From an uncultured Oscillospiraceae bacterium (GTDB lineage Bacteria > Bacillota > Clostridia > Oscillospirales > Oscillospiraceae): 64,000 bases of DNA. The position numbers were made by a program, and so were the translations under genes. How positions within the stretch are numbered: position 1 is the first letter of the stretch; every line of letters begins with the position of its first letter. Below are positions 6,490 to 16,844 of this stretch, piece by piece. The notes beneath the pieces are model-generated. The model worked only from the letters and a program-made list of their open reading frames with translations, did not search any database and was not told the DNA's origin. The stretch lies in the NCBI GenBank assembly GCA_947585425.1, contig CANPWZ010000002.1:1-64000 (forward strand), given 5' to 3'.

Positions 6490-9400
6490 TTATGCCGCAG
6501 CGTTGGCGTTGATCCGATCGATCACCGCCCGGATGCCCAGCCAGAGGGTCATGTCGGCGAACACCTCCGCCACGCTGCCCCGGTCGGTGAAGGGCGGCTC
6601 CTGCAAGACGGACAGGTCCTTCAAAACGCCGTTGTGGACGATGTACTCAACGATCTGGTTGACGAAATAGATCTGCCGGCTGTCCAAGCTGGCGTCGTTG
6701 AGATACTGAGCGAAGGCATCCTTCGCGGCGTTCATGTCCATGCCCACGATCTCCCGGACGAACTCGCCCAGGGGCTTCCTGCCGTACTCTGCCTCGTAGT
6801 CCTGCCGGGTGCCCACCTCGGTCCAGAGGATGCGCTCCAGGTCGGCCACGTCATCCGGCGTCAGCGGGACGTTGCCTCGCAGCTTGGCGACGGCGGCCTC
6901 GTCCAGGTGCTGCCGGAGGTAGAACTCCGCTTTGGCCTTGTAGTTTTTCAGGTCGTCGTTTTCCAGGTCCGGCTCTTTCCACTCCATGGACAGGATCTCG
7001 TCGTCGAAATCGGTATCATATCGGATGTGCTCGATGGGGATGTACTTGATGAGGTTTCGCAGATTTTCCCGGATATATTCAAAGTCACCGATGCCGGCGC
7101 TCGCCATATAGCCGGTGTGTATGATCTTCTGGAGCAGCTCCGACTGGGCCATGATCTCCGGGATGTTGGGGACTCCGGCGATGGCCCTGGCTTTTTTGAT
7201 GAGGTCTTTTCGGGCCCGCGCGTACTGTTTCCCCGCCAGACAGGCCAGCTCGATGCCGCATAGCAGCGCGTCGAACCGCACGGCCTTGGGGTCGTCGGGG
7301 TCGGGTACGATCAGCGGGGCCAGCTCGTCTTTGATGCGGAGCGTGTCCTCATAGGTGAGGGCGGCGTAGTTCTCCGGGTCGGAGTACAGCTCCGCGTACC
7401 TGAGATGCTGCCGCACGGCGAAGCTCTCCCGGTCCAGCTCCCGGACCTTCCGCGCCATGTCGTCCACCAGGGACTGGCGGAAAGCGGACAGCTCCGGCGT
7501 CTGATAAGCCGGGTCCTGGAGTTTGTAGATGATCTGCGCTTTCAGGGTAAAGACGGCGCTCTGCACCGCCATCTGGTTGGCGGTGGGCTTGCCCTTGTTC
7601 ATGCGGAAGAACTCGAAGTTGCCGCAGAAGTCGAAGATGTAGAATTTGTCCTTGTCCGCCCCGTCCATCAGACCCGGACACAGGCGGGTGCCCCGGCCGA
7701 TCATCTGCCAGAACTTGGCCCGGCTGAACACCTTTTTAAAGAACACCAGGTTCAGCACCTCCGGCACGTCGATGCCGGTGTCCAGCATGTCCACCGAGAT
7801 GGCGATCTGGGGCAGCTTTTTCGGATCGGAGAACTCGTCGATGGCGCTCTGGGCGTAGTTCAGATAGTTGTCGATGACCTGGGCATAGCCGGGCAGATGG
7901 GGGTATTCCTGATTGAACACCTCCAGGATCTTCTCCGCGTGGGCGTGGTTCTTGGCGAAGATGATGGTCTTGCCGATCCTGCCGCCGTAGTCGATTTTCA
8001 ACCCGTTGTCCATGAGGACCCGGAGGACCTCCCGGATGGTGTCCCCGTTGAACAGCCACTCGTTCAAAGCGGAGGAGCTGATGCTGTCCGGCATCTCCTC
8101 GTCCCGGCTGAAGGTCTCCTCGTAGGCGGCCTTGTCCGCCTCGGACAGCTCGTCGTAGACGATGCCCTGCTCGATGAATTTCAGCCGCGTCTCCACCGAC
8201 AGAAAGTCCACCAGGTAGCCGTCCTTCACCGCCTGGGCCAGGTCGTAGCCGTAGGTGGGCACGCCGCTCTCCAGCTCGAAAATTTCGTAAGTATTTTTGT
8301 CGATCTCGTCCTTGGGGGTCGCGGTGAGGCCCACCAGGGGCGCGTCGAACCAGGTGAAGATGTCCTGGTACTTGTTGTAGATGGAGCGGTGGGCCTCGTC
8401 GCAGATCACCAGATCGAAGTGGCCGCAGGTGAACACCTTGCCATCCCGGTCCCGGGCGGTGTCGATGCGGTTCATCATGGTCTGGTAGGTGGAGAACACG
8501 CAGTGGGCGGCATCGTTGTCCCGCTCCTCGCACAGATTGGTGATGGACAGGTCGGGCAGCAGATTCACGAAAGCCCGCTTGGCCTGGGTGACCAGGGAGT
8601 TGCGGTCGGCCAGGAACAGGATGTTCCGCACCCAGCCGTGGTCCAGCAGCACCTTGCACAGGGCGGCGGCGGTGCGGGTCTTGCCCGAGCCGGTGGCCAT
8701 GACCAGCAGGGCCTTCCGGCGGTTCTTCTCCCCAAAGGCGGCGCACACCGCCTTGACCGCCCCCTCCTGGTACCAGCGCCCGGCGATGTCCCGGTCCACC
8801 ACGACGTTTTTCAGGCTGGTGCGCATGGACTGGAGGTTGAACCACTTTTCCAGGTCACGCTTGGACCAGATGGCGGCCACCTTTCGCTCGGGATAGCGCC
8901 CGTCGTTGACGCGGGTCTCGAAGCCGTTGGTGAGGAAGATCACCGGGCGGCAGCCGCTCTGCTTCTCCAGCAGATCGGCGTAGAGCTTGGCCTGCTGGCG
9001 GCCCCGGCTCACGTCGGCGCAGGCCCGCTTGGCCTCCACCACCGCCAGGGGCCGGTGGGCGTCGTCATAGAGGACGTAGTCCGCGTAGCCCACCCCGCCC
9101 GCGTTGGGCATCCCGGGCAGCTCCACCTCGTTCAGCCAGTCCCGACCCTCGGTCCAGCCGGCGTCCAGCAGCATGGCGTCGATGTAGATCTTCCGGGTGG
9201 CGTACTCGGACAGGTCCAGCGGCCTGGGGACGTAGTTCTGCCGCTGGACCGCCCGGCGGGCGGTCAGCTCCTCTCGGAGCGCCGCGTTTTCCGCCATGAG
9301 CTTGTCCAGGTCCACGTCGGGCGCCGGCGGGGGAGGCGGCGCGGCCTGGGCGCGCACCAGCGCGGGGTCGAACTCCCCCGGGGTGTATGTAAAGTCCTCG

Positions 9401-9792
9401 CCGCCGTAGCAACAGGCCACGAAATCCAGATAATAATACAGATTTTCCAGGCACAGCATGGCCTGTTCCTCGGTGATCTTTTTCCCCGTGTGGGCGGCGC
9501 TGTTGCCCAGCACCCGAATCAGCTTCATCCGCTCCCACAGGTCGGGGCCCACGATGTCCCGGAAGTTCCCGTTGTCCATCAGCGCCACCAGCCGGTCGTC
9601 GTAGGGCTTGACCAGCTCCCCGTCCACCGAGTACATCCACTTCACGGCGCGCTCCATCGCCCGGCGGCAGTTAAGGACGCAAGCCGCCGGGTCGATGTGC
9701 AGGATCTGCTCCGCGGCCGCCGCCGGGGCGGCGAAGAAGGCGAAGTCCTTATTATTTTGGAGGAAGGAGAAGTTGGACATAAAATCACTCAT
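6490..9792 (-). CDS. hsdR: Type I restriction endonuclease, R (motor and nuclease) subunit
   Basis: 1100 residues, a normal HsdR length. Order: a DUF4145-like helical N-terminus (about 20-120, AEQILHIDPAAC); a nuclease domain with VVEAKRA in a PD-(D/E)XK setting (about 220-290); Walker A ATGSGKT; DEAH in VICDEAHRS; GLTATP; and helicase motif VI-like IGRGTRL, then a helical C-terminus of the EcoEI type. It translocates and cleaves DNA lacking host methylation, with HsdM and HsdS. The start has only a weak ribosome site, 3 bp after the Abi-alpha gene, so translation is probably coupled. A second copy of its 5' end with a strong ribosome site lies at 10857-11003. Confidence 0.95.
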   Translation of the reverse strand: MSDFMSNFSFLQNNKDFAFFAAPAAAAEQILHIDPAACVLNCRRAMERAVKWMYSVDGELVKPYDDRLVALMDNGNFRDIVGPDLWERMKLIRVLGNSAAHTGKKITEEQAMLCLENLYYYLDFVACCYGGEDFTYTPGEFDPALVRAQAAPPPPPAPDVDLDKLMAENAALREELTARRAVQRQNYVPRPLDLSEYATRKIYIDAMLLDAGWTEGRDWLNEVELPGMPNAGGVGYADYVLYDDAHRPLAVVEAKRACADVSRGRQQAKLYADLLEKQSGCRPVIFLTNGFETRVNDGRYPERKVAAIWSKRDLEKWFNLQSMRTSLKNVVVDRDIAGRWYQEGAVKAVCAAFGEKNRRKALLVMATGSGKTRTAAALCKVLLDHGWVRNILFLADRNSLVTQAKRAFVNLLPDLSITNLCEERDNDAAHCVFSTYQTMMNRIDTARDRDGKVFTCGHFDLVICDEAHRSIYNKYQDIFTWFDAPLVGLTATPKDEIDKNTYEIFELESGVPTYGYDLAQAVKDGYLVDFLSVETRLKFIEQGIVYDELSEADKAAYEETFSRDEEMPDSISSSALNEWLFNGDTIREVLRVLMDNGLKIDYGGRIGKTIIFAKNHAHAEKILEVFNQEYPHLPGYAQVIDNYLNYAQSAIDEFSDPKKLPQIAISVDMLDTGIDVPEVLNLVFFKKVFSRAKFWQMIGRGTRLCPGLMDGADKDKFYIFDFCGNFEFFRMNKGKPTANQMAVQSAVFTLKAQIIYKLQDPAYQTPELSAFRQSLVDDMARKVRELDRESFAVRQHLRYAELYSDPENYAALTYEDTLRIKDELAPLIVPDPDDPKAVRFDALLCGIELACLAGKQYARARKDLIKKARAIAGVPNIPEIMAQSELLQKIIHTGYMASAGIGDFEYIRENLRNLIKYIPIEHIRYDTDFDDEILSMEWKEPDLENDDLKNYKAKAEFYLRQHLDEAAVAKLRGNVPLTPDDVADLERILWTEVGTRQDYEAEYGRKPLGEFVREIVGMDMNAAKDAFAQYLNDASLDSRQIYFVNQIVEYIVHNGVLKDLSVLQEPPFTDRGSVAEVFADMTLWLGIRAVIDRINANAAA

Positions 9793-9795
9793 TCT

Positions 9796-10569
9796 TTATT
9801 GACCTGGAAAGCATATTTTCAAAAACTTATTTCCAAAGTCACTCATTTGAATGAACAACTCATCTTGTTTGATCTCTAGATTACGCGAGGGGTTTGCAAT
9901 AACTGCCTCTTGATATTTTGCCTGGATAAACGGATGGTCTAATATTTTCTGATAGTCGTAACTGGTTACACTACCTTCGCCTATAGTGATAATATTCAGC
10001 CTTGATAAGTTATCCAATGATACCGAAACTGCCCATACATCAAATGAATCGTAAAAGTAAGGACTAAAATATCGCGGCAGAATGGCGGATAAGTATTTCG
10101 TTTCAAAAGTAAATCTCACTTTAGCGGCAGGTATAGTGTCATGAATTTTAGAGATTTTTTCTAAAACCTTTGCGTCATAGCTGTCCAATTGGTTCACTAC
10201 TGTAACAAAGGCAGGATGAACATCCTTTGCTGTAGCCGCATTCATAGAACTAGCCAACAATTTTGCATATGTTTTTCGAATAGAATCCTCGTCGGTTATG
10301 CTGGCGTTTTGTAATACAGGTACGGCTATTCTGGGTTTTGGCGGAATAATCTCCTCTGGTTGCATTTTTTCAAGCTCATATTCAACCATCTCTCGAAGTG
10401 CTGTGAGAGCATCATCCCTTAGTTGGGGATAATACTCTCTAAATAATTCAAATGCCAGGTGCGTGGCGTCAGAGACAGATAATCCCATATTATTTTGAAC
10501 TGCAATTTGAGTAGTTTGGGAACCAAGCGCAGCTTTCTGGTTGACCTCAACCTTATCCGTCAAATTCAT
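9796..10569 (-). CDS. Abi-alpha-like (DUF4393) abortive-infection protein with amyloid-like N-terminal motif
   Basis: 257 residues from MNLTDKVEVNQKAALGS. The body (GLSVSDATHLAFELFREYYP, then QLRDDALTALREMVEYELEK) and the downstream SITDEDSIRKTYAKLLASSM fit the Abi-alpha/DUF4393 family, predicted to act in phage-induced abortive infection. Residues about 9-24 carry NQKAALGSQTTQIAVQNN, very like the C-terminus of the small membrane protein encoded just upstream. Such motifs are typical of bacterial amyloid (RHIM-like) signalling partners. The gene overlaps the upstream gene by 17 nt and ends 3 bp before hsdR. An in-frame start at 10614 is possible but lies in the upstream gene. Confidence 0.75.
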   Translation of the reverse strand: MNLTDKVEVNQKAALGSQTTQIAVQNNMGLSVSDATHLAFELFREYYPQLRDDALTALREMVEYELEKMQPEEIIPPKPRIAVPVLQNASITDEDSIRKTYAKLLASSMNAATAKDVHPAFVTVVNQLDSYDAKVLEKISKIHDTIPAAKVRFTFETKYLSAILPRYFSPYFYDSFDVWAVSVSLDNLSRLNIITIGEGSVTSYDYQKILDHPFIQAKYQEAVIANPSRNLEIKQDELFIQMSDFGNKFLKICFPGQ

Positions 10570-10759
10570 CACCTTCGTTTCTGTTAATCTGAATACCAAT
10601 TTGTGTAGTTCCATTCCCTTTGGCTTTTTGATTTACCACAGCTGTTTTGCTATCAGTCGCTTTGCCTGGGGAGCCTTTTTTGCCTACAAATTTATTGATA
10701 ATTGCAACAATAATAGCACCGCCCGCAGTAATTAATGCAATAATAATCCCTTCTGTCAT
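10553..10759 (-). CDS. Short single-pass membrane protein with C-terminal amyloid-like motif
   Basis: 68 residues: one transmembrane helix (GIIIALITAGGAIIVAIINK, about 4-23), a basic linker (FVGKKGSPGK), then VNQKAKGNGTTQIGIQIN near the C-terminus. The last segment shares its NQKA-G-TTQI-Q-N pattern with the N-terminus of the next gene's product. GAGGTG lies upstream of the ATG. The layout, a membrane segment joined to a self-templating motif, is that of a bacterial amyloid-controlled cell-death pair, but activity is inference. No named family is recognised for the whole protein. Confidence 0.75.
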   Translation of the reverse strand: MTEGIIIALITAGGAIIVAIINKFVGKKGSPGKATDSKTAVVNQKAKGNGTTQIGIQINRNEGDEFDG

Positions 10760-10770
10760 AAGTTTTCACC

Positions 10771-10855
10771 TCACCCAAAATATTTCTGCATCAGCGCTTT
10801 TTTCATCGTTTCTAACTGCCGATCTATATGATTTCCCCACCCTTGCCAACTGAGT
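10771..10855 (-). pseudogene. Orphan hsdS 3' tail (remnant 1)
   Basis: Encodes WGNHIDRQLETMKKALMQKY then FG and a stop, closely matching the tail of the intact hsdS (LDKLETVKKALMQEYFA). It is joined directly to an hsdR 5' fragment and lies 11 nt before the small membrane gene. It has no start and no specificity domain, so it marks a past recombination end. Confidence 0.8.
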
Positions 10856-10856
10856 A

Positions 10857-11003
10857 CCCCCGCTTCACGGCGCGCTCCATCGTCCGGCGGCAGCTCAGCA
10901 CGCAGGCCGCCGGGTCGATGTGCAGGATCTGCTCCGCGGCCGCCGCCGGGGCGGCAAAGGGGGCAAAATCCGCGCTGGATTGGAGGAAGGAGAAGTTGGA
11001 CAT
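10857..11003 (-). pseudogene. Duplicate hsdR 5' end (about 49 codons) with its ribosome site
   Basis: From the ATG at 11003 the frame reads MSNFSFLQSSADFAPFAAPA, then AAAEQILHIDPAACVLSCRR. This matches the real HsdR start with few changes. After about 47 codons it breaks into the hsdS tail remnant. Upstream stands AAGAGGAGGGT, a stronger ribosome site than that of the intact hsdR, so this may be the original hsdR start region. Confidence 0.85.
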
Positions 11004-11017
11004 GGATGACCCTCCTC

Positions 11018-11809
11018 TTAAATCTCAAGTATTTTCTTTGACTGGAGCTTTGCGTCATCGACTTCTCGAATCTGTATCGTATTTGTCAGCAGATCCTTTG
11101 TCTCCATAATATGAAACCAATTTAAAGTACCAATATTTGCAATGAAATAACCAGAGCCTGGCGGGATAATTGGGGGGGCATCTTTTGCCCCCAATAATAT
11201 AATGCGCCATTCGTTTTGCCATCTATATGATACATCTTTTTTGAAAAAGGCCTCAATTCCTGGCCGCGTATCTTCATTTAGCATTTCAATGTCATATTGC
11301 TTGTGAATCTCAACATAGTCTACGGGTCCATATTGTACTGCCATATGATTTTTTTCTACAAAGACAGACATTTTCTCTATAAATTCGCTTGCAGAAAATA
11401 TTGCAAAATATTTTCCAAACTGCTGCATTTCTTGGATGAACTCTTGTCTAAAAGCAAATTCTGTATCTGTTTTCTTATAGAGAATATCTTGAGAGAGCGC
11501 CGTGGCACAAAACAGAGGGATCTTATCATCGTTTTGAAATCCGACGGTAAAATTTCGCACAAATTTAATGGGTATTCTTATTCCCTCTGAACCATCCTCT
11601 GGACGCAATTCCATATATTCATCTGCAAGTCTGTCAAGCGAAATCGGACACCTTCCATCAAACTGGTCACCCCTAAACTGGTCTTCCAGCTTGCGGAAAA
11701 AACCGCTTTCATTCATGTAGATCTGTCCTCGCCCAATATCCTCCAAATGTTCTTTAACATTGCTGAACTTTAAAAGCATGTTAGGTATTGTATATCCAAA
11801 AACATCCAT
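11018..11809 (-). CDS. Uncharacterised operon-embedded protein (cargo slot 2)
   Basis: 263 residues starting MDVFGYTIPNMLLKFSNVKE; a start ten codons in (MLLKFSN) is also possible. It has no signal peptide or membrane segment. Recognisable features are GRGQIYMNESGFFRKLEDQF, an aromatic YRWQNEWRIILLG segment and a mixed alpha/beta pattern. The style recalls DUF2971-like proteins that start with a short LKF segment and occur in defence loci and prophages, but I cannot place it firmly. Its start lies 3 nt after a remnant hsdS tail, the same spacing as between intact hsdS and the TIR gene. It ends just before the hsdR 5' duplicate. Confidence 0.6.
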   Translation of the reverse strand: MDVFGYTIPNMLLKFSNVKEHLEDIGRGQIYMNESGFFRKLEDQFRGDQFDGRCPISLDRLADEYMELRPEDGSEGIRIPIKFVRNFTVGFQNDDKIPLFCATALSQDILYKKTDTEFAFRQEFIQEMQQFGKYFAIFSASEFIEKMSVFVEKNHMAVQYGPVDYVEIHKQYDIEMLNEDTRPGIEAFFKKDVSYRWQNEWRIILLGAKDAPPIIPPGSGYFIANIGTLNWFHIMETKDLLTNTIQIREVDDAKLQSKKILEI

Positions 11810-11812
11810 GTG

Positions 11813-11874
11813 TTATAACTTGCCTCTCGCAAAGTATCTGAATCAGTACTTTTTCATTATTTCCAATCGCCGAC
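11813..11874 (-). pseudogene. Orphan hsdS 3' tail (remnant 2), frameshifted
   Basis: The minus strand reads RRLEIMKKY, a stop, then FRYFARGKL and a TAA. At the DNA level it aligns with the tails at 12538-12600 and 10771-10850 (shared CTGATTCAG/CTGATGCAG and GAAATAATGAAAAA blocks). It has lost the frame and lies directly after the TIR-like gene. Confidence 0.7.
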
Positions 11875-12534
11875 TTATAATTTTGCGATATCTATACTAT
11901 AGCCGTTTTTATTCATCTCTTTGACCAAATCAATGGTCGTTTCTTTTACATCTGAAGTAAAAGGAATATAGATTAGCCCTTGAATATCAGAGGGTTTTTC
12001 CATATTTTCGATGTTTTTCAACAGAACTGCAACCTTTGATCTTCCGAGTCGAGATAACAGCATTCCCATTTCTAATACAACATTTTGTCGTACACGATAT
12101 TTCTTAGCTCCTTCGTTATCTTTAGAATAACCAATATCATCGGGAGTAGCTAGTACGATTCCAAATTGTGCTTTTGGGATATACTCTTCTAACTTTTCGA
12201 TAATGGTGTTTCCAGATGATTCGAGTTGGTCCAAAATTAGTGGGTTTAAGTCCCAACGGCGCAACATTGCTTCTAATTACGTTCGGGCTACTTGGTCATG
12301 ACCGTATACAACAAATACATTCCGAGTTTTGGGGACTTCACATGGATTATTAATGATAGATTTAATTTCATCCGAGTTTTTCCCCTGATATACAATTTTT
12401 CCGCTGTCATATAAATTGATTATACAGCCATTTGAAACTCGTACAGTATCCGCATATCCATTTTTCATTCGTTCATCTGAAACAATAGTGTAACCTTTGG
12501 ATTTAAGTAAATTAATGACAGCTGTTTTATCCAT
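11875..12534 (-). pseudogene. TIR-like (PF10137-type) nucleotide-binding protein interrupted by one in-frame stop
   Basis: Together 219 codons. The N-terminal 70 residues (MDKTAVINLLKSKGYTIVSD) form a small unknown domain. Then NVFVVYGHDQVART, the TAA at 12277-12279, and LEAMLRRWDLNPLILDQLES, GNTIIEKLEEY and LEMGMLLSRLGRSKVAVLL follow without a frame change. This is the predicted TIR-like nucleotide-binding family, which hydrolyses NAD in several anti-phage systems. Family members usually have an amide or charged residue at the stop, so a single CAA to TAA change is likely. The gene starts 3 nt after hsdS. Either it is inactive, or an internal ATG at 12267 yields only the C-terminal part. Confidence 0.8.
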
Positions 12535-12537
12535 ATT

Positions 12538-13692
12538 TTAGTTCCCCCCTATTTTGGCTTTAGTTGCAAAATACTCCTGCATCAGCGCTTTTTTCACTGT
12601 TTCCAGTTTATCCAATCCCTGCTGGGCTGTCAACCGGCATTTCTCGACAGCATCTACATATATAGAAAAATCTTTTTGTATCCCAATCGGCGGGATCATT
12701 AGTCGCAGAGTGTTTATTGAATTAAAGTTCAATCCGGCCTTTACCGCATTTTGGTTTTTGCTTTCAAACTGCTTTTTCCCTGCTGGGCTCTCCATGTAGT
12801 AAGCAACATATAAGGGGTCTAAAATTGTTTTATCTAAACGTATACAAGTCAAATGCTGGTTAATATAAGCTCCATAATCAGCGATTTCTTTTGAAACAAC
12901 GCCTGTTCTGCCTAAATCTGCGGTAATACTAATTAATAAATCTCCTTCTTGTACCTTTGTCCGCTTAGCCTCGACATTATCAGGAGGCATGATATGCTGA
13001 AAATTATCTGCCGAAATTTTGCAATTTTTCACATTTTTAATGGTTATAAATAATTCCCCGGCCTCAGAAAAATATTTCGCCCATCCCCTTGAACCGGATG
13101 TCAAAAATTGTATATACTCCGACAACTGATGAATAGGCCATTCTTTGGGGTTACTCACCGGGTCCCCAAACATCTCCACAAACCGAGCCTTAACCAGCTC
13201 GTCCAGTTTAGCAAGCTGTTGTTCCCGAAGGGCAATGAGGCCGCTGACCTTGTCCAATATAACGGCAATGCGGTTTTGTTCCTCCACAGGCGGCAAATAG
13301 AACGGAAGCGCATCGAATACAGGCTTTGTAAGATGCTTCATGGTTGCCCCATGAGTTTCTGACGAGGCTTTCTCCAAAATGTCCTGTACTTGATGGACAA
13401 AGAAGCTTTTGTTGATTGGGATTTTATTAAAAAGCACCTTAAAAATGTGCTGATTCAATAAAGCCTTTTCACCCTTCCAGACATATACCCCCAAGCTGGC
13501 GGACCAAGAGATCAACACGTCACCTTCAAGAACTTCGTACTTTGGATCATATTCGCCGTCATAGCGATTTGCTTGGTACGAGTTGCCTGTAAGGTCTTGG
13601 ATGCGAATAATAGGCAAGCCCCTATTGCTCCAATCATCAGGTTTAAATGCATAGCCGTTTATGTATGTTGCAATGTCACCTAATCTGGCCAT
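12538..13692 (-). CDS. hsdS: Type I restriction-modification specificity subunit
   Basis: 384 residues with two target-recognition halves. TRD1 begins MARLGDIATYINGYAF and ends near LPFYLPPVEEQNRIA; a conserved helix follows (LREQQLAKLDELVKARFVEM). TRD2 spans about 200-340 (LSEYIQFLTSGSRGW to LRLMIPPIGIQKDF), and the second helix ends LETVKKALMQEYFATKAK. It directs HsdM and HsdR to a bipartite DNA sequence that cannot be predicted here. Its start overlaps the stop of the upstream membrane gene by one base (TAATG). Two orphan copies of its tail lie downstream, suggesting recombination at this end. Confidence 0.95.
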   Translation of the reverse strand: MARLGDIATYINGYAFKPDDWSNRGLPIIRIQDLTGNSYQANRYDGEYDPKYEVLEGDVLISWSASLGVYVWKGEKALLNQHIFKVLFNKIPINKSFFVHQVQDILEKASSETHGATMKHLTKPVFDALPFYLPPVEEQNRIAVILDKVSGLIALREQQLAKLDELVKARFVEMFGDPVSNPKEWPIHQLSEYIQFLTSGSRGWAKYFSEAGELFITIKNVKNCKISADNFQHIMPPDNVEAKRTKVQEGDLLISITADLGRTGVVSKEIADYGAYINQHLTCIRLDKTILDPLYVAYYMESPAGKKQFESKNQNAVKAGLNFNSINTLRLMIPPIGIQKDFSIYVDAVEKCRLTAQQGLDKLETVKKALMQEYFATKAKIGGN

Positions 13693-14177
13693 TATCCCAC
13701 CCCCATATAAAGCGCAACAAGTGCCACGACTAATGCGCCTAAAGATACCATACTAGAAAAAACAGCGACGACAAATTGCCGATCTTTTTCTTTATCCAGT
13801 TCTTTTGCAGCAAAAAAGGTAAAAAGGGAAATAGCAAAACATATCAATGCAAAGAAAAACGCGATAATTAACTTTAATAGGCTTTGAAAACTCCAAATTG
13901 GGCTCGCTAAATCTACAATAGATGAAATGGCTTGAATAAAAAAGGCGATACCTAATAGCCCCACCACAACTGAGACGGTCCCCAAAACAGGAATGATAAT
14001 AAATTTCATCCACTCACGCGTGATAGAATACTTTTCTGCCCGCTTCTCATTTTCGCTTGCCACTGCTTTTGCAATACAGTCGGCAAGTCTATCATAGTCG
14101 ATCTGCTCAATCGGAGGCATGACTAATGCGTGTTCTTTCTCTTCCAAAGATTCAACACGTTTTTTCTTCCGGCTCAT
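13692..14177 (-). CDS. Three-helix membrane protein translationally coupled within the hsd operon
   Basis: 161 residues starting MSRKKKRVESLEEKEHALVM. The start overlaps the hsdM stop as ATGA and is preferred to an upstream start that only shadows hsdM. A charged 60-residue cytoplasmic part is followed by three hydrophobic segments (FIIIPVLGTVSVVVGLLGIA; LLKLIIAFFFALICFAISLF; FVVAVFSSMVSLGALVVALV) separated by short charged loops. The stop overlaps the hsdS start. No family is recognised. A membrane protein in such tight coupling between methylase and specificity genes is unusual; a defence effector or membrane tether are possible but unproven roles. Confidence 0.8.
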   Translation of the reverse strand: MSRKKKRVESLEEKEHALVMPPIEQIDYDRLADCIAKAVASENEKRAEKYSITREWMKFIIIPVLGTVSVVVGLLGIAFFIQAISSIVDLASPIWSFQSLLKLIIAFFFALICFAISLFTFFAAKELDKEKDRQFVVAVFSSMVSLGALVVALVALYMGVG

Positions 14178-15670
14178 ACCATCCCCTCCAATTCCTCCAG
14201 CCCCCGGCTGATCTCCGCCTCGATCTCTTTCAGCTCCGCCAAAATCTCGCTGGTGGGCGGGTACTCCACCGGCGTGTACTCGGTTTTCTTGTACTTGTTG
14301 ATGGACAGGTCGTACCCGTTGGCCACGATCTCCTCCCGGGGCACCAGGAAGGACTGCTCCGTGCGGGCGCGGGCCTTTTCCGCCTCCCGGTCCCGGAACC
14401 GGGCCACGATGTCGGGGATGTCGTTCTCCGCCACGGGGGCGCGCTTGTCGTCCAGGGAGAAGCCGTCGGCTCGCATATCGTAGAACCACACCTGGTCGGT
14501 GCCGCCGTGGCCGGTCTTGGTGAACACCAGCACGCCGGTGGACACCCCGGCGTAGGGCTTGAACACGCCGGAGGGCATGGAGATGACGGCCTCCAGGCGA
14601 TTGCCGTCGATAAGCTCGTTTCGGATGGCCTTATGGGCGGCGGAGGAGCCGAACAGCACCCCGTCGGGGACGATGCAGGCGCAGCGGCCGCCCACCTTGA
14701 GCATCCGCAGGAACAGGGCCAGGAACAGCAGCTCGGTCTTTTTCGTCTTGCAGACCTTCAGCAGGTCGGCGGAGACGGTGTCGGCGTCCAGGCTGCCCTT
14801 GAAGGGGGGATTGGCCAGGATGATGGAGTACTTGTCCCGGTCGGTGTTCTGGTCGGACAGGCTGTCCCGGTACTCGATGAAGGGGTTGTCCACCCCGTGG
14901 GTCATCATGTTCATGGCGCCGATACGGAGCATGGTGCGGTCCATGTCGTAGCCGGTGAACATATGGTTCATGTAGTGATCCTTTTTCTGCCGGTCAAAGA
15001 GGATCTCGCCCTTGTACTTCTCCCGCAGGTACTGCCCGGCGGTGATGAGGAAGCCGGAGGTGCCGCAGGCGGGGTCGCAGATCACGTCGTCCGGCCCGGG
15101 GTCCAGCAGCTCCACCATCATGCGGATGATGTGCCGGGGGGTGCGGAACTGGCCGTTGACCCCGGCGGTGGAGATCTTGGACAGGAGGTACTCATAGATG
15201 TCGCCCCGCACGTCGGCGTCGTGGAGCTGGGCCATCTGGTCATAGATGCCGTCCAGGGCGGTGACGATCTTGTCCAGCATCAGGGGCGTGGGGATCTTGA
15301 AGATGGCGTCGTCCATATACTTGGCGTAGGCGCTGGACTTGTCCCCATGGAGGTCCTTGATAAAGGGGAACGCCCACTCCTGGACGGTGGAGTACATCTT
15401 GGCCGCCGGGAAGTCCCGGAACACCGACCACTTGAGCTGCTTGCCGGGGACGGTGCGCTCCCCGATTTTGACCTCCTCGGTGAAAATGCTCTGATGGGGC
15501 AGGCCCAGCATGGCGCTCTCCCGGGCGCGGGTGTTGTCTGCGTCGTCCAGGTCGCGGATGAACATGAGATAGGTCATCTGCTCCACCACGTCCAGCGGGT
15601 TGGTGATGCCGCCGGTCCAGAAGATTTCCCAGAGGCTGTTGACTTTGTTTTTCAGTTCTCCCGTGATCAT
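14174..15670 (-). CDS. hsdM: Type I restriction-modification DNA methyltransferase subunit
   Basis: 498 residues. An N-terminal helical bundle (MITGELKNKVNSLWEIFW) is followed by an N6-adenine methylase domain: DPACGTSGFL for SAM binding and LANPPFKG as the catalytic NPPF motif. With HsdS it methylates adenines of the recognition sequence and so protects host DNA. The start at 15670 is supported by a GGGAGAGAG site and by an ATGA overlap with the fic stop. A longer in-frame start lies inside fic and is rejected. Part of the fic-hsdM-membrane protein-hsdS transcript. Confidence 0.95.
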   Translation of the reverse strand: MITGELKNKVNSLWEIFWTGGITNPLDVVEQMTYLMFIRDLDDADNTRARESAMLGLPHQSIFTEEVKIGERTVPGKQLKWSVFRDFPAAKMYSTVQEWAFPFIKDLHGDKSSAYAKYMDDAIFKIPTPLMLDKIVTALDGIYDQMAQLHDADVRGDIYEYLLSKISTAGVNGQFRTPRHIIRMMVELLDPGPDDVICDPACGTSGFLITAGQYLREKYKGEILFDRQKKDHYMNHMFTGYDMDRTMLRIGAMNMMTHGVDNPFIEYRDSLSDQNTDRDKYSIILANPPFKGSLDADTVSADLLKVCKTKKTELLFLALFLRMLKVGGRCACIVPDGVLFGSSAAHKAIRNELIDGNRLEAVISMPSGVFKPYAGVSTGVLVFTKTGHGGTDQVWFYDMRADGFSLDDKRAPVAENDIPDIVARFRDREAEKARARTEQSFLVPREEIVANGYDLSINKYKKTEYTPVEYPPTSEILAELKEIEAEISRGLEELEGMV

Positions 15671-16728
15671 TGTTCTCTCTCCCTGTTCCAAGTGTAAGAT
15701 GTGTAGCGGCCGCCGCCGATCTTCAGGACCTCGCCCGATTTGACCAGCGCGTTGAGGGCCCGCTGTATGGTGATCTGGCTGATGTCCGGGCACTTTTGTA
15801 CGATCTCCGCCTTGGTGATCTTCCCCAGAGTGTCTTTGATGACCGCCCGCACCCGGTCCGACTTGCTGAGGTCCGCGGCGGTCAGCATCCGCGCCCGGGC
15901 GGAGAACTCCCGGCAGGCCGCCGCGATCACGCTCAGCAGATACCGGGCGAAGGGGACGTAGTCGTTCTCTTTTTCGTGCCAGCCCACAGAACTCTGCTGG
16001 AGCGCGTCATAATAGGTCCCTTTCGTCTGCTCGATGAGTTTTTCGATGCTGATATACCTGCCCACGAAATACCCCGCCCGGTAGAGCAGCAGCAGGGTGA
16101 GCAGGCGGCTCATGCGGCCGTTGCCGTCGTTGAAGGGGTGGATACAAAGAAAGTCCAGGATGAAGACGGGGATCAGCAGGAGCGGGTCATATTCCGTGTT
16201 TTTTGCGGCCTCGTCAAAGGCACCGCAGGCCCGCTCCACCGCCTCCGGCGTCTCCCAGGCGGGGACCGGCTGAAATCGGACAAACTTGTTTCCCTGCTCG
16301 TCAATCTCCTGGATGACGTTGGCGGAATTTTTATAGGCCCCGCCGATAGACTTCCCGCTGAACCGATACAGGTCCCGGTGGAGCTGGAGGATGACCGAGG
16401 GTTTCAGCGGGAGATAGGCATAGTTTTCATGGATGGTGGCCAGCACATCCCGGTAGCCCGCAATCTCCTGCTCATCCCGGGATCTGGGCATGGTCTTGTC
16501 CCGCACCAGTTTTTTCAGCCGTTCGTCGGAGGTAAAAATGCCCTCGATCCGGTTGGACGCTTCGGTACTCTGGATCTTGGCCAGCTCTATGAGTTGGGCC
16601 AAGGTGTCGCCTTTTGTCTCGATGAGCAAGGCCTGCTCCCCTTTGTGCTCGTGGACCTGGCCCAACAGGGCCACGATGTTCGGGGCGAGCAATTTTTGGT
16701 AAATTCCATCATAGCTGTAATCGCGCAT
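15667..16728 (-). CDS. Fic-family protein with autoinhibitory helix and C-terminal winged helix
   Basis: 353 residues from MRDYSYDGIYQKLLAPN, with GAGGTG upstream; an alternative ATG at 16740 has a poorer site. The Fic core carries HPFNDGNGRMSR (about 200), the catalytic loop that transfers AMP from ATP to protein hydroxyls. Near residue 70, STEASNRIEGIF contains the S-x-x-x-E-G inhibitory motif, which makes the protein self-restraining. The last 60 residues (ITKAEIVQKCPDISQITIQR) look like a winged helix, so it may also bind DNA, perhaps the inverted repeat in its own promoter. It leads the hsd operon and overlaps hsdM by 4 nt. Confidence 0.9.
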   Translation of the reverse strand: MRDYSYDGIYQKLLAPNIVALLGQVHEHKGEQALLIETKGDTLAQLIELAKIQSTEASNRIEGIFTSDERLKKLVRDKTMPRSRDEQEIAGYRDVLATIHENYAYLPLKPSVILQLHRDLYRFSGKSIGGAYKNSANVIQEIDEQGNKFVRFQPVPAWETPEAVERACGAFDEAAKNTEYDPLLLIPVFILDFLCIHPFNDGNGRMSRLLTLLLLYRAGYFVGRYISIEKLIEQTKGTYYDALQQSSVGWHEKENDYVPFARYLLSVIAAACREFSARARMLTAADLSKSDRVRAVIKDTLGKITKAEIVQKCPDISQITIQRALNALVKSGEVLKIGGGRYTSYTWNREREQ

Positions 16729-16763
16729 AGGGCACCTCATTTCCGCAGCCTTTTCGGTTCTAT

Positions 16764-16844
16764 ATCGCAGTTTATCACTAAGATGCTCAGACGTCAAGTT
16801 AATTACATCATTTTTTAAAATATGATATAATTAAAAACTGCGAT
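16764..16844. promoter_or_regulatory. Perfect 10-bp inverted repeat around the fic promoter
   Basis: ATCGCAGTTT at 16764-16773 and AAACTGCGAT at 16835-16844 are exact reverse complements. One arm sits on the -10 element and the other about 38 bp upstream of the -35. The layout suits a repressor binding two sites and looping or stacking. The Fic winged helix is the nearest candidate binder. Confidence 0.65.
16769..16797 (-). promoter_or_regulatory. Promoter of the fic-hsd operon
   Basis: On the minus strand TTGACG (16797-16792), a 17-bp spacer and TAAACT (16774-16769). The -10 overlaps the left arm of the inverted repeat at 16764-16773. Confidence 0.7.

Follow-up and report, generated by a model that had tools for sequence, protein, structure and literature searches.

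Orphan hsdR starts and hsdS ends between stacked cargo genes point to a probable recombination-fed slot in clostridial type I restriction operons

Several defence genes are known from within type I restriction-modification (hsd) loci. According to the excerpts of the reports on which we draw, prrC lies within the EcoprrI type I locus (PMC3874165), rlo genes lie within type I loci of Campylobacter (PMC2610378), and DarTG2 of the EPEC RRDM island sits between hsdS and hsdR, at a site termed a potential recombination hotspot (PMC12255303). TgvAB of VPI-2 has been compared with a Campylobacter gene located between hsdR and hsdS (PMC11411939), the defence gene rloC of G. kaustophilus lies beside a truncated hsdR (PMC2610378), and the phage defence candidates (PDCs) of PADLOC come from guilt-by-embedding (PMC12988326, PMC10855318). 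Here, we describe an hsd operon in a window of 64,000 nucleotides from an uncultured Oscillospiraceae bacterium (assembly GCA_947585425.1, contig CANPWZ010000002.1, positions 1 to 64,000), in which the interval between hsdS and hsdR carries several cargo genes together with extra copies of the hsdR start and the hsdS end. We refer to these copies as orphan heads and orphan tails, and collectively as scars.

The operon lies on the minus strand and is transcribed in the order Fic, hsdM, a gene for a 162-aa membrane-like protein, hsdS and hsdR. Apart from the 162-aa protein, its members were assigned by Pfam and PADLOC, and hsdM, hsdS and hsdR are open genes running in one direction, as in a type I restriction-modification operon. 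The end of hsdS (12538) and the start of hsdR (9792) are 2.7 kb apart, the homologous hsdR start codon being 9780, inside the open reading frame (ORF) 6490..9792. In transcription order, this gap contains a TIR gene, tail B, the gene for a 263-aa protein, an hsdR head, tail C, the gene for a 68-aa protein and an Abi_alpha gene (Table 1). A sequence-only reading of this DNA had proposed that three hsdS tails in the same direction (the real one, here tail A, and two others), each followed by different cargo, and an extra hsdR 5' end mark three joined versions of a recombination-fed slot for single defence genes.

We found that the orphan hsdR head is 86% identical to the operon's own hsdR start over 155 nt (10849-11003), or 87% identical over 120 nt in a shorter alignment (10884-11003), and that the own hsdR start is its best match among the 57 heads compared. 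AGGAGG is located 7 nt ahead of its ATG, in agreement with the strong ribosome site proposed for this extra 5' end. Comparison of the tails with shuffled sequence, which had been suggested as a check, gave pairwise scores of 29 (A-B), 54 (A-C) and 40 (B-C), none of which was reached by any of 2000 dinucleotide shuffles, and all three tails thus stood. The A-B margin was narrow (best shuffle, 28), and B-C is the stronger evidence. Against all hsdS tails, tail B scored 40, which none of 400 shuffles reached (best, 37); it fell below the threshold of the hsdS-tail protein profile, so that support for this frameshifted copy lies at the DNA level. Tail C is separated from the orphan head by 14 unassigned nt and had been placed at 10771-10855. 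Its alignment with other hsdS genes covers approximately 10771-10818 and ends in ...KKALMQKYFG-stop; the remainder, to approximately 10834, could be aligned with tail B only. Over 42 nt, tail C is 93% identical to the hsdS end of a related locus (L083). Tail B is nearer to tail C than to tail A, and the two look like sister copies because they share upstream sequence that has no counterpart in A. The distance from tail to the next start is 3 nt in the first two slots, as had been noted, and 11 nt in the third.

The window gap genes are foreign-looking, lie on the operon strand and are enclosed by hsd genes, as is typical of embedded cargo. The families and ORFs also agree with the claim that each slot holds something different, namely, a TIR-like gene, an unknown gene, and a membrane protein paired with Abi-alpha. 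The TIR cargo matched PF10137 on its C-terminal piece (E 9e-29) and PDC-S35 on both of the pieces into which it is split (see below). By family assignment, cargo 1 (TIR/PDC-S35) and cargo 3b (Abi_alpha/PDC-S47) are candidate defence genes, whereas the 263-aa gene fits no such family. An AlphaFold model of the 263-aa protein built on three sequences had a mean pLDDT of 34. Kinship of this protein with the DUF2971 cargo was considered and dropped (profile comparison probability, 0.1).

Table 1. Features of the operon and of its hsdS-hsdR gap (window positions, in transcription order)
Feature	Position	Strand	Evidence or remark
Fic/DOC family gene	15667..16797	-	PF02661, PADLOC SoFic; directly upstream of hsdM
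hsdM, type I methyltransferase	14174..15676	-	N6_Mtase, HsdM_N; PADLOC MTase_I E 5e-180
162-aa membrane-like protein, fills the hsdM-hsdS gap	13692..14180	-	no family over Pfam cut-off
hsdS, intact specificity gene carrying the real 3' tail (A)	12538..13692	-	two Methylase_S stretches
Cargo 1, TIR gene (PDC-S35), starts 3 nt after hsdS	11875..12534	-	PF10137, PDC-S35
Orphan hsdS tail B, degenerate, frameshifted	11813..11874	-	DNA-level shuffle test; under protein-profile threshold
Cargo 2, 263-aa gene, begins 3 nt past tail B	11018..11809	-	no Pfam or PADLOC family
Orphan hsdR head, ~51 codons, own ribosome site	10849..11003	-	nucleotide identity to the operon's own hsdR start
Orphan hsdS tail C, joined to the preceding orphan head	10771..10834	-	tail profile 23.7 bits; 0/100 shuffles
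Cargo 3a, 68-aa small membrane-like partner	10553..10759	-	40% relative before the PDC-S47 protein in the L068 gap
Cargo 3b, Abi_alpha/PDC-S47 protein	9796..10614	-	PF14337 E 4e-37; PDC-S47 E 1e-79
hsdR, intact restriction subunit with real head	6490..9792	-	PADLOC REase_I E 6e-155; DUF4145 N-terminus

To place this gap among its relatives, we sought HsdR homologues in family (33 of 300 genomes; E 1e-60), order (43 of 394) and class (37 of 391; both E 1e-150) samples, which partly overlap, hold one genome per species and consist mostly of draft assemblies. Some HsdR matches, mostly fragments or at contig edges, were left out (6 of 35 places in the family, 5 in the order and 8 in the class). 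The resulting set comprised 83 homologous clostridial loci (L numbers), including the window and L092. In 75 of these, hsdS was recognised, and in 8 it was not; for L103, a fragment was assigned manually as hsdS. We scored a gap as occupied when 150 bp or more lay between hsdS and hsdR, and we assigned operons to the near subtype when HsdR identity was 56% or more.

By this measure, the gap was occupied in 63 of the 75 loci (466 to 5579 bp) and empty in 12 (-25 to 101 nt by the script's measure); occupancy was 49/52 in the near subtype and 14/23 in more distant operons. In all 46 gaps of the first set, GC content was lower than in hsdR (means, 0.36 versus 0.54), and 119 of the 123 gap ORFs of at least 100 aa were co-directional with the operon. 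These 123 ORFs fell into 79 clusters, 22 of which were common to several loci, and included 13 extra hsdS or recombinase-cluster ORFs. Among the 82 gap proteins of the first set, the first 25 of 40 Pfam families included AbiH, DUF2971, DUF2806, DUF559, DUF4238 and DUF4062, as well as TIR_2, SIR2_2, PIN_8, FRG, AAA and Polbeta. Several PADLOC families were also met, and 12 of the 30 gap proteins scanned singly had no Pfam family at the thresholds used. Gaps hold up to six called ORFs, which refines the proposal of single defence genes. Two side observations concern the cargo itself: in L083, two ORFs behind an orphan head (oriented gap 1171-1841) look like one split cargo gene, a relative of the L050 DUF4062 gene, and L046 (oriented gap about 930-2113) and L047 carry imperfect local direct repeats of ~100-330 nt around DUF559-type cargo.

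We then compared cargo between operons with closely similar flanks. Among the 15 closest hsdR pairs listed, seven had no cargo comparison (five lack hsdS in one member; the others are L036/L045, with two empty gaps, and L045/L085, with one), and L037/L042 was compared but uninformative, no ORF having been called in L042. In the seven informative pairs, with hsdR starts 88-93% identical and cargo on both sides, no cargo cluster was held in common, as expected of a slot fed by recombination, although three of these pairs link L039, L057 and L092 among themselves, and thus the pairs are not all independent. To judge from these sequences, cargo turns over faster than the hsd genes do.

The sequence-only reading had anticipated that relatives would carry one of the window cargos, or others, at the same position, and this proved correct. 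A TIR/PDC-S35 protein was present in the hsdS-hsdR gap of L100, from the class sample. In L092, a complete genome, a 50% identical counterpart of the 263-aa gene lies in the same gap, 9 nt after hsdS, and is followed by an orphan hsdR head, so that L092 and the window have the succession of hsdS tail, 263-aa-type gene and orphan hsdR head in common. Between that head and the real hsdR of L092, we also noted a 528-aa cargo protein without a Pfam or PADLOC match (L092:5917-7503). The Abi_alpha/PDC-S47 gene occurs in full in the L081 gap, and more distant PDC-S47 relatives follow a small protein in both L053 and L068. In none of the other loci examined did the three window cargos occur together, which speaks against a block of fixed composition. 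In the family sample, 2 of 300 genomes matched the 263-aa gene, namely, the window's and G275 (a 32% relative on a contig without an hsd match), and a scan of genome contigs for this gene confirmed 1 of 21 stretches, L092. The PADLOC TIR family was matched in 3 of 388 order genomes, the two other than the window's having no hsd gene within ~1.5 kb per side, and Abi-alpha had one match, at 31%, among 72,556 plasmid records.

Scars were then sought in all 63 occupied gaps, in six frames, using hsdR-head and hsdS-tail profiles built from the real ends. At a threshold of at least 12 bits, we detected 11 heads, distributed over 10 loci, and 8 tails, distributed over 6, exclusively on the operon strand. 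The opposite strand, the 20 shuffled sets and 373,876 bp of sequence upstream of hsdM (56 loci) gave no match at this threshold; the shuffled sets gave one head match between 10 and 12 bits. Leaving out the window, which was the query, and L092, which was found via its cargo, scars were present in 9 of 61 occupied gaps (L041, L043, L047, L050, L057, L061, L083, L101 and L107). The scar in L043 is degenerate, and a weaker tail in L073 was detected by DNA alignment alone. L080 is among the 61 but not among the 9; its extra tail is part of an extra hsdS gene beside a recombinase and was not counted. The slot, its differing cargo and the recurrent scars that separate cargo genes are thus features of a set of operons and not of the window only.

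The scars take several forms. A tail lies directly behind 5 of the 11 heads (0/100 shuffles each), L061 has a tail only, and L092, L041, L057 and L101 have heads without a detected tail. The richest array is that of L050, in which hsdS is followed by a DUF4062 gene, a head fused to a tail, a 160-aa gene without a family, a tail, a DUF4238 gene, a gene with a weak HEPN match, a second head fused to a tail, a further weak-HEPN-match gene and hsdR. In L107, cargo is flanked by two copies of a tail-spacer-head repeat, identical at 318 of 336 aligned positions. Orphan tails are ~14-37 codons long, and scars have diverged by 5-29% from the real ends. Homology of the heads begins at most 20 nt before the ATG in 8 of 10 aligned cases (L041, -48; L107, -60, the edge of the stretch compared), a border shared with the real head. 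Because they keep the ribosome-site region and the start, the orphan heads look like former slot borders.

We examined two further settings for the same signature. In the hsdM-hsdS gap, 23 of 66 loci hold at least 150 bp, and no orphan hsdM tail or hsdS head scored at least 40; the idea of a second scarred slot was rejected on these grounds, inserts being present and scars at that score absent. Relatives of the window's 162-aa membrane-like protein (26-29%) occupy the corresponding place in L038, L097 and L102; this gap is a second slot, again with no scars found. Outside Clostridia, we took 8 of 11 Acinetobacter records. In these plasmids, the hsdS-hsdR gap was empty in L123 and L125 and occupied in L122, L126, L127 and L128, of which L127 and L128 have the same sequence over the hsdR part compared; the scar test leaves out L124, for which hsdS is not annotated immediately upstream, and L129, in which the hsdS end is not defined. 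L123, L125 and L126 have hsdR genes that are 93-95% identical over the first 1.5 kb, yet their gaps differ: those of the first two contain no cargo, and that of L126 holds a NERD-helicase gene, without scars. The cargo position is therefore not confined to Clostridia, and scars were seen in Clostridia alone, with few non-clostridial loci examined.

We consider it probable that the hsdS-hsdR junction is a cargo slot served by homologous recombination, to which one-sided illegitimate joins at times add cargo and leave scar repeats. Homology-facilitated illegitimate recombination is known in transformable bacteria. AT-rich, foreign-looking genes, many of them defence-type, occupy the interval from the stop codon of hsdS to the ribosome site of hsdR in operon direction, and ordinary homologous recombination would exchange them through the conserved 3' end of hsdS and 5' end of hsdR. 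Where both ends are homologous, cargo would be swapped without a scar. Where a donor fragment is anchored at hsdS or at hsdR and its other end is joined without homology, cargo would instead be added beside the resident, leaving a single tail, a single head or a head-tail fusion; one type of event, the one-sided anchored join, can in this way yield all three scar forms. That the own operon's hsdR is the best match of orphan heads in 6 of 9 cases counts for this reading as well as for the tandem duplication considered below. The window would have undergone at least two such additions, joining a TIR slot, a 263-aa-gene slot and a slot with the small protein and Abi-alpha pair. Once present, scars may act as short direct repeats, allowing cargo to be lost while hsdS and hsdR stay intact. 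The earlier proposal of a recombination-fed slot with several versions joined is thus supported, its joining route being our reconstruction.

Several observations weigh against this reading. Exchange and addition are reconstructed from fossil junctions in a sample with one genome per species, and neither was observed directly. The close pair L036/L045 is unchanged, with both gaps empty. Behind 5 of 11 heads, no tail is detectable, and in L043 it is marginal (2/100 shuffles); heads alone therefore do not single out the one-sided route. The junctions show no consistent microhomology. Tail C is not closest to the operon's own hsdS, which ranks 13th of 52, and the own hsdR ranks second and third for the heads of L092 and L057, which fit another operon's hsdR slightly better, and eighteenth for the very short match in L043. 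In the window, a single in-frame TAA between 12277 and 12267 splits the TIR gene, and this interrupted copy may be a dead gene; likewise, hsdR of L050, the richest array, was found in two overlapping frames (oriented about 6804-10062), so that operon may be broken. Finally, the four occupied Acinetobacter plasmid gaps have no scar (best head or tail score, 28), and the scar habit may be limited to this clostridial subtype.

An alternative source of the repeats is local tandem duplication of a unit of hsdS tail, cargo and hsdR head by unequal crossing-over or slippage, with the cargo of one copy later replaced. The similarity of orphan heads to their own operon is what such duplication would produce: the own hsdR was the best match in 6 of 9 cases. 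The order of head and tail in the fused scars, the 336-column direct repeat of L107 and the likeness of tails B and C to sister copies point in the same direction. So does L041 (oriented gap about 972-1014 and 2584-2626), in which two different cargo genes finish on nearly identical codons, one just ahead of the orphan and the other just ahead of the real hsdR start; this looks like reuse of an older cargo's 3' end. We nevertheless regard tandem duplication as unlikely. No whole duplicated cargo gene was seen, and ORFs of the same cluster shared one gap only in L046 (short ORFs in the local repeat), L080 (an extra hsdS) and L083 (the split gene); moreover, the tail-only scar of L061 and the head-only scars of L092, L041, L057 and L101 would require further deletions.

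Much less probable is an origin of the tails by decay of silent hsdS copies in a phase-variable, invertible locus. Six related loci (L056, L070, L075, L079, L080 and L111) do carry an extra hsdS beside an ORF of one recombinase cluster in the same gap, and the four such ORFs that were scanned (L056, L075, L079 and L080) are tyrosine recombinases. Phase-variable hsdS and the cargo slot therefore coincide in these six gaps, which is an observation of its own. The window gap, however, contains neither a recombinase among its ORFs nor an extra, largely full-length hsdS, its orphan tails span just ~14-37 codons, and orphan hsdR heads are left unexplained by such an origin. A dedicated, integron-like cassette system with a site-specific recombinase would account for the layout as an array with a repeated junction between cargo genes, and appears more improbable still. 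Head homology ends ~40 to 260 nt into hsdR, at a point that differs between loci, and the starts of the tails vary too; a site-specific recombinase is therefore disfavoured, and recombinases were found only alongside extra hsdS copies, the cargo ORFs having been scanned singly in part. An assembly chimaera of several hsd loci, conceivable for a window from a 2.0-Mb genome in 58 contigs with mostly draft relatives, is scarcely credible given the similar layout in the complete genome L092, the scars in 9 of 61 other occupied gaps, and a divergence of the scars from the real ends that is unlike repeat collapse.

Little is known of the routes by which defence genes enter existing operons. With a homologous-recombination slot that is at times extended by one-sided joins, scars would be fossil junctions that preserve the orientation, order and breakpoints of insertions, and the acquisition of embedded defences without transposons or integrases may therefore be reconstructable. 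A search rule for new defence genes also follows, namely, to read hsdS-hsdR gaps and the intervals from orphan hsdS tails to hsdR heads; by that rule, candidate defence genes include the 263-aa gene and the other cargos that match no family. More tentatively, and with somewhat more doubt than confidence, we suggest that the junction functions as an integrase-free cassette array, in which defence modules are added beside resident ones by one-sided homologous recombination and scars provide homology for later gain, loss and swapping. If so, a cell could stack, test and shed defences while its restriction enzyme stays intact. As to the neighbouring genes, a Fic/DOC gene precedes hsdM in many relatives too (56-73% identical copies), as if it were an operon member.

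In integron arrays, unrelated cargo genes are separated by repeated elements, and the layout of the window gap is similar; the window gap differs in having no fixed breakpoint and no recombinase found among its ORFs. With phase-variable hsdS loci, it has extra hsdS sequence in common, but the window has tails only, carries hsdR heads and yielded no recombinase. The truncated hsdR of G. kaustophilus is, in the excerpt available, a C-terminal part next to a transposon-borne gene and away from a complete operon, whereas the window has 5' heads inside the operon. The PDC-S35 and PDC-S47 families, described as candidates in the portions of the PADLOC reports used here, are matched by cargo 1 and cargo 3b; they are gene families, whereas the present subject is the supply of cargo to the slot and its stacking there. 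Cargo between hsd genes is already known, and scar-marked stacking is seemingly undescribed: in the literature searched, to which most subscription papers did not belong, no description of hsdR-head or hsdS-tail scars or of stacked slots was met, which is weak evidence of novelty. As far as the excerpted accounts of prrC, rlo, DarTG2 and TgvAB extend, the window resembles these systems in placing independent defence genes inside an hsd operon, and it differs from them in stacking several cargos, with truncated hsdR starts and hsdS ends set between them.

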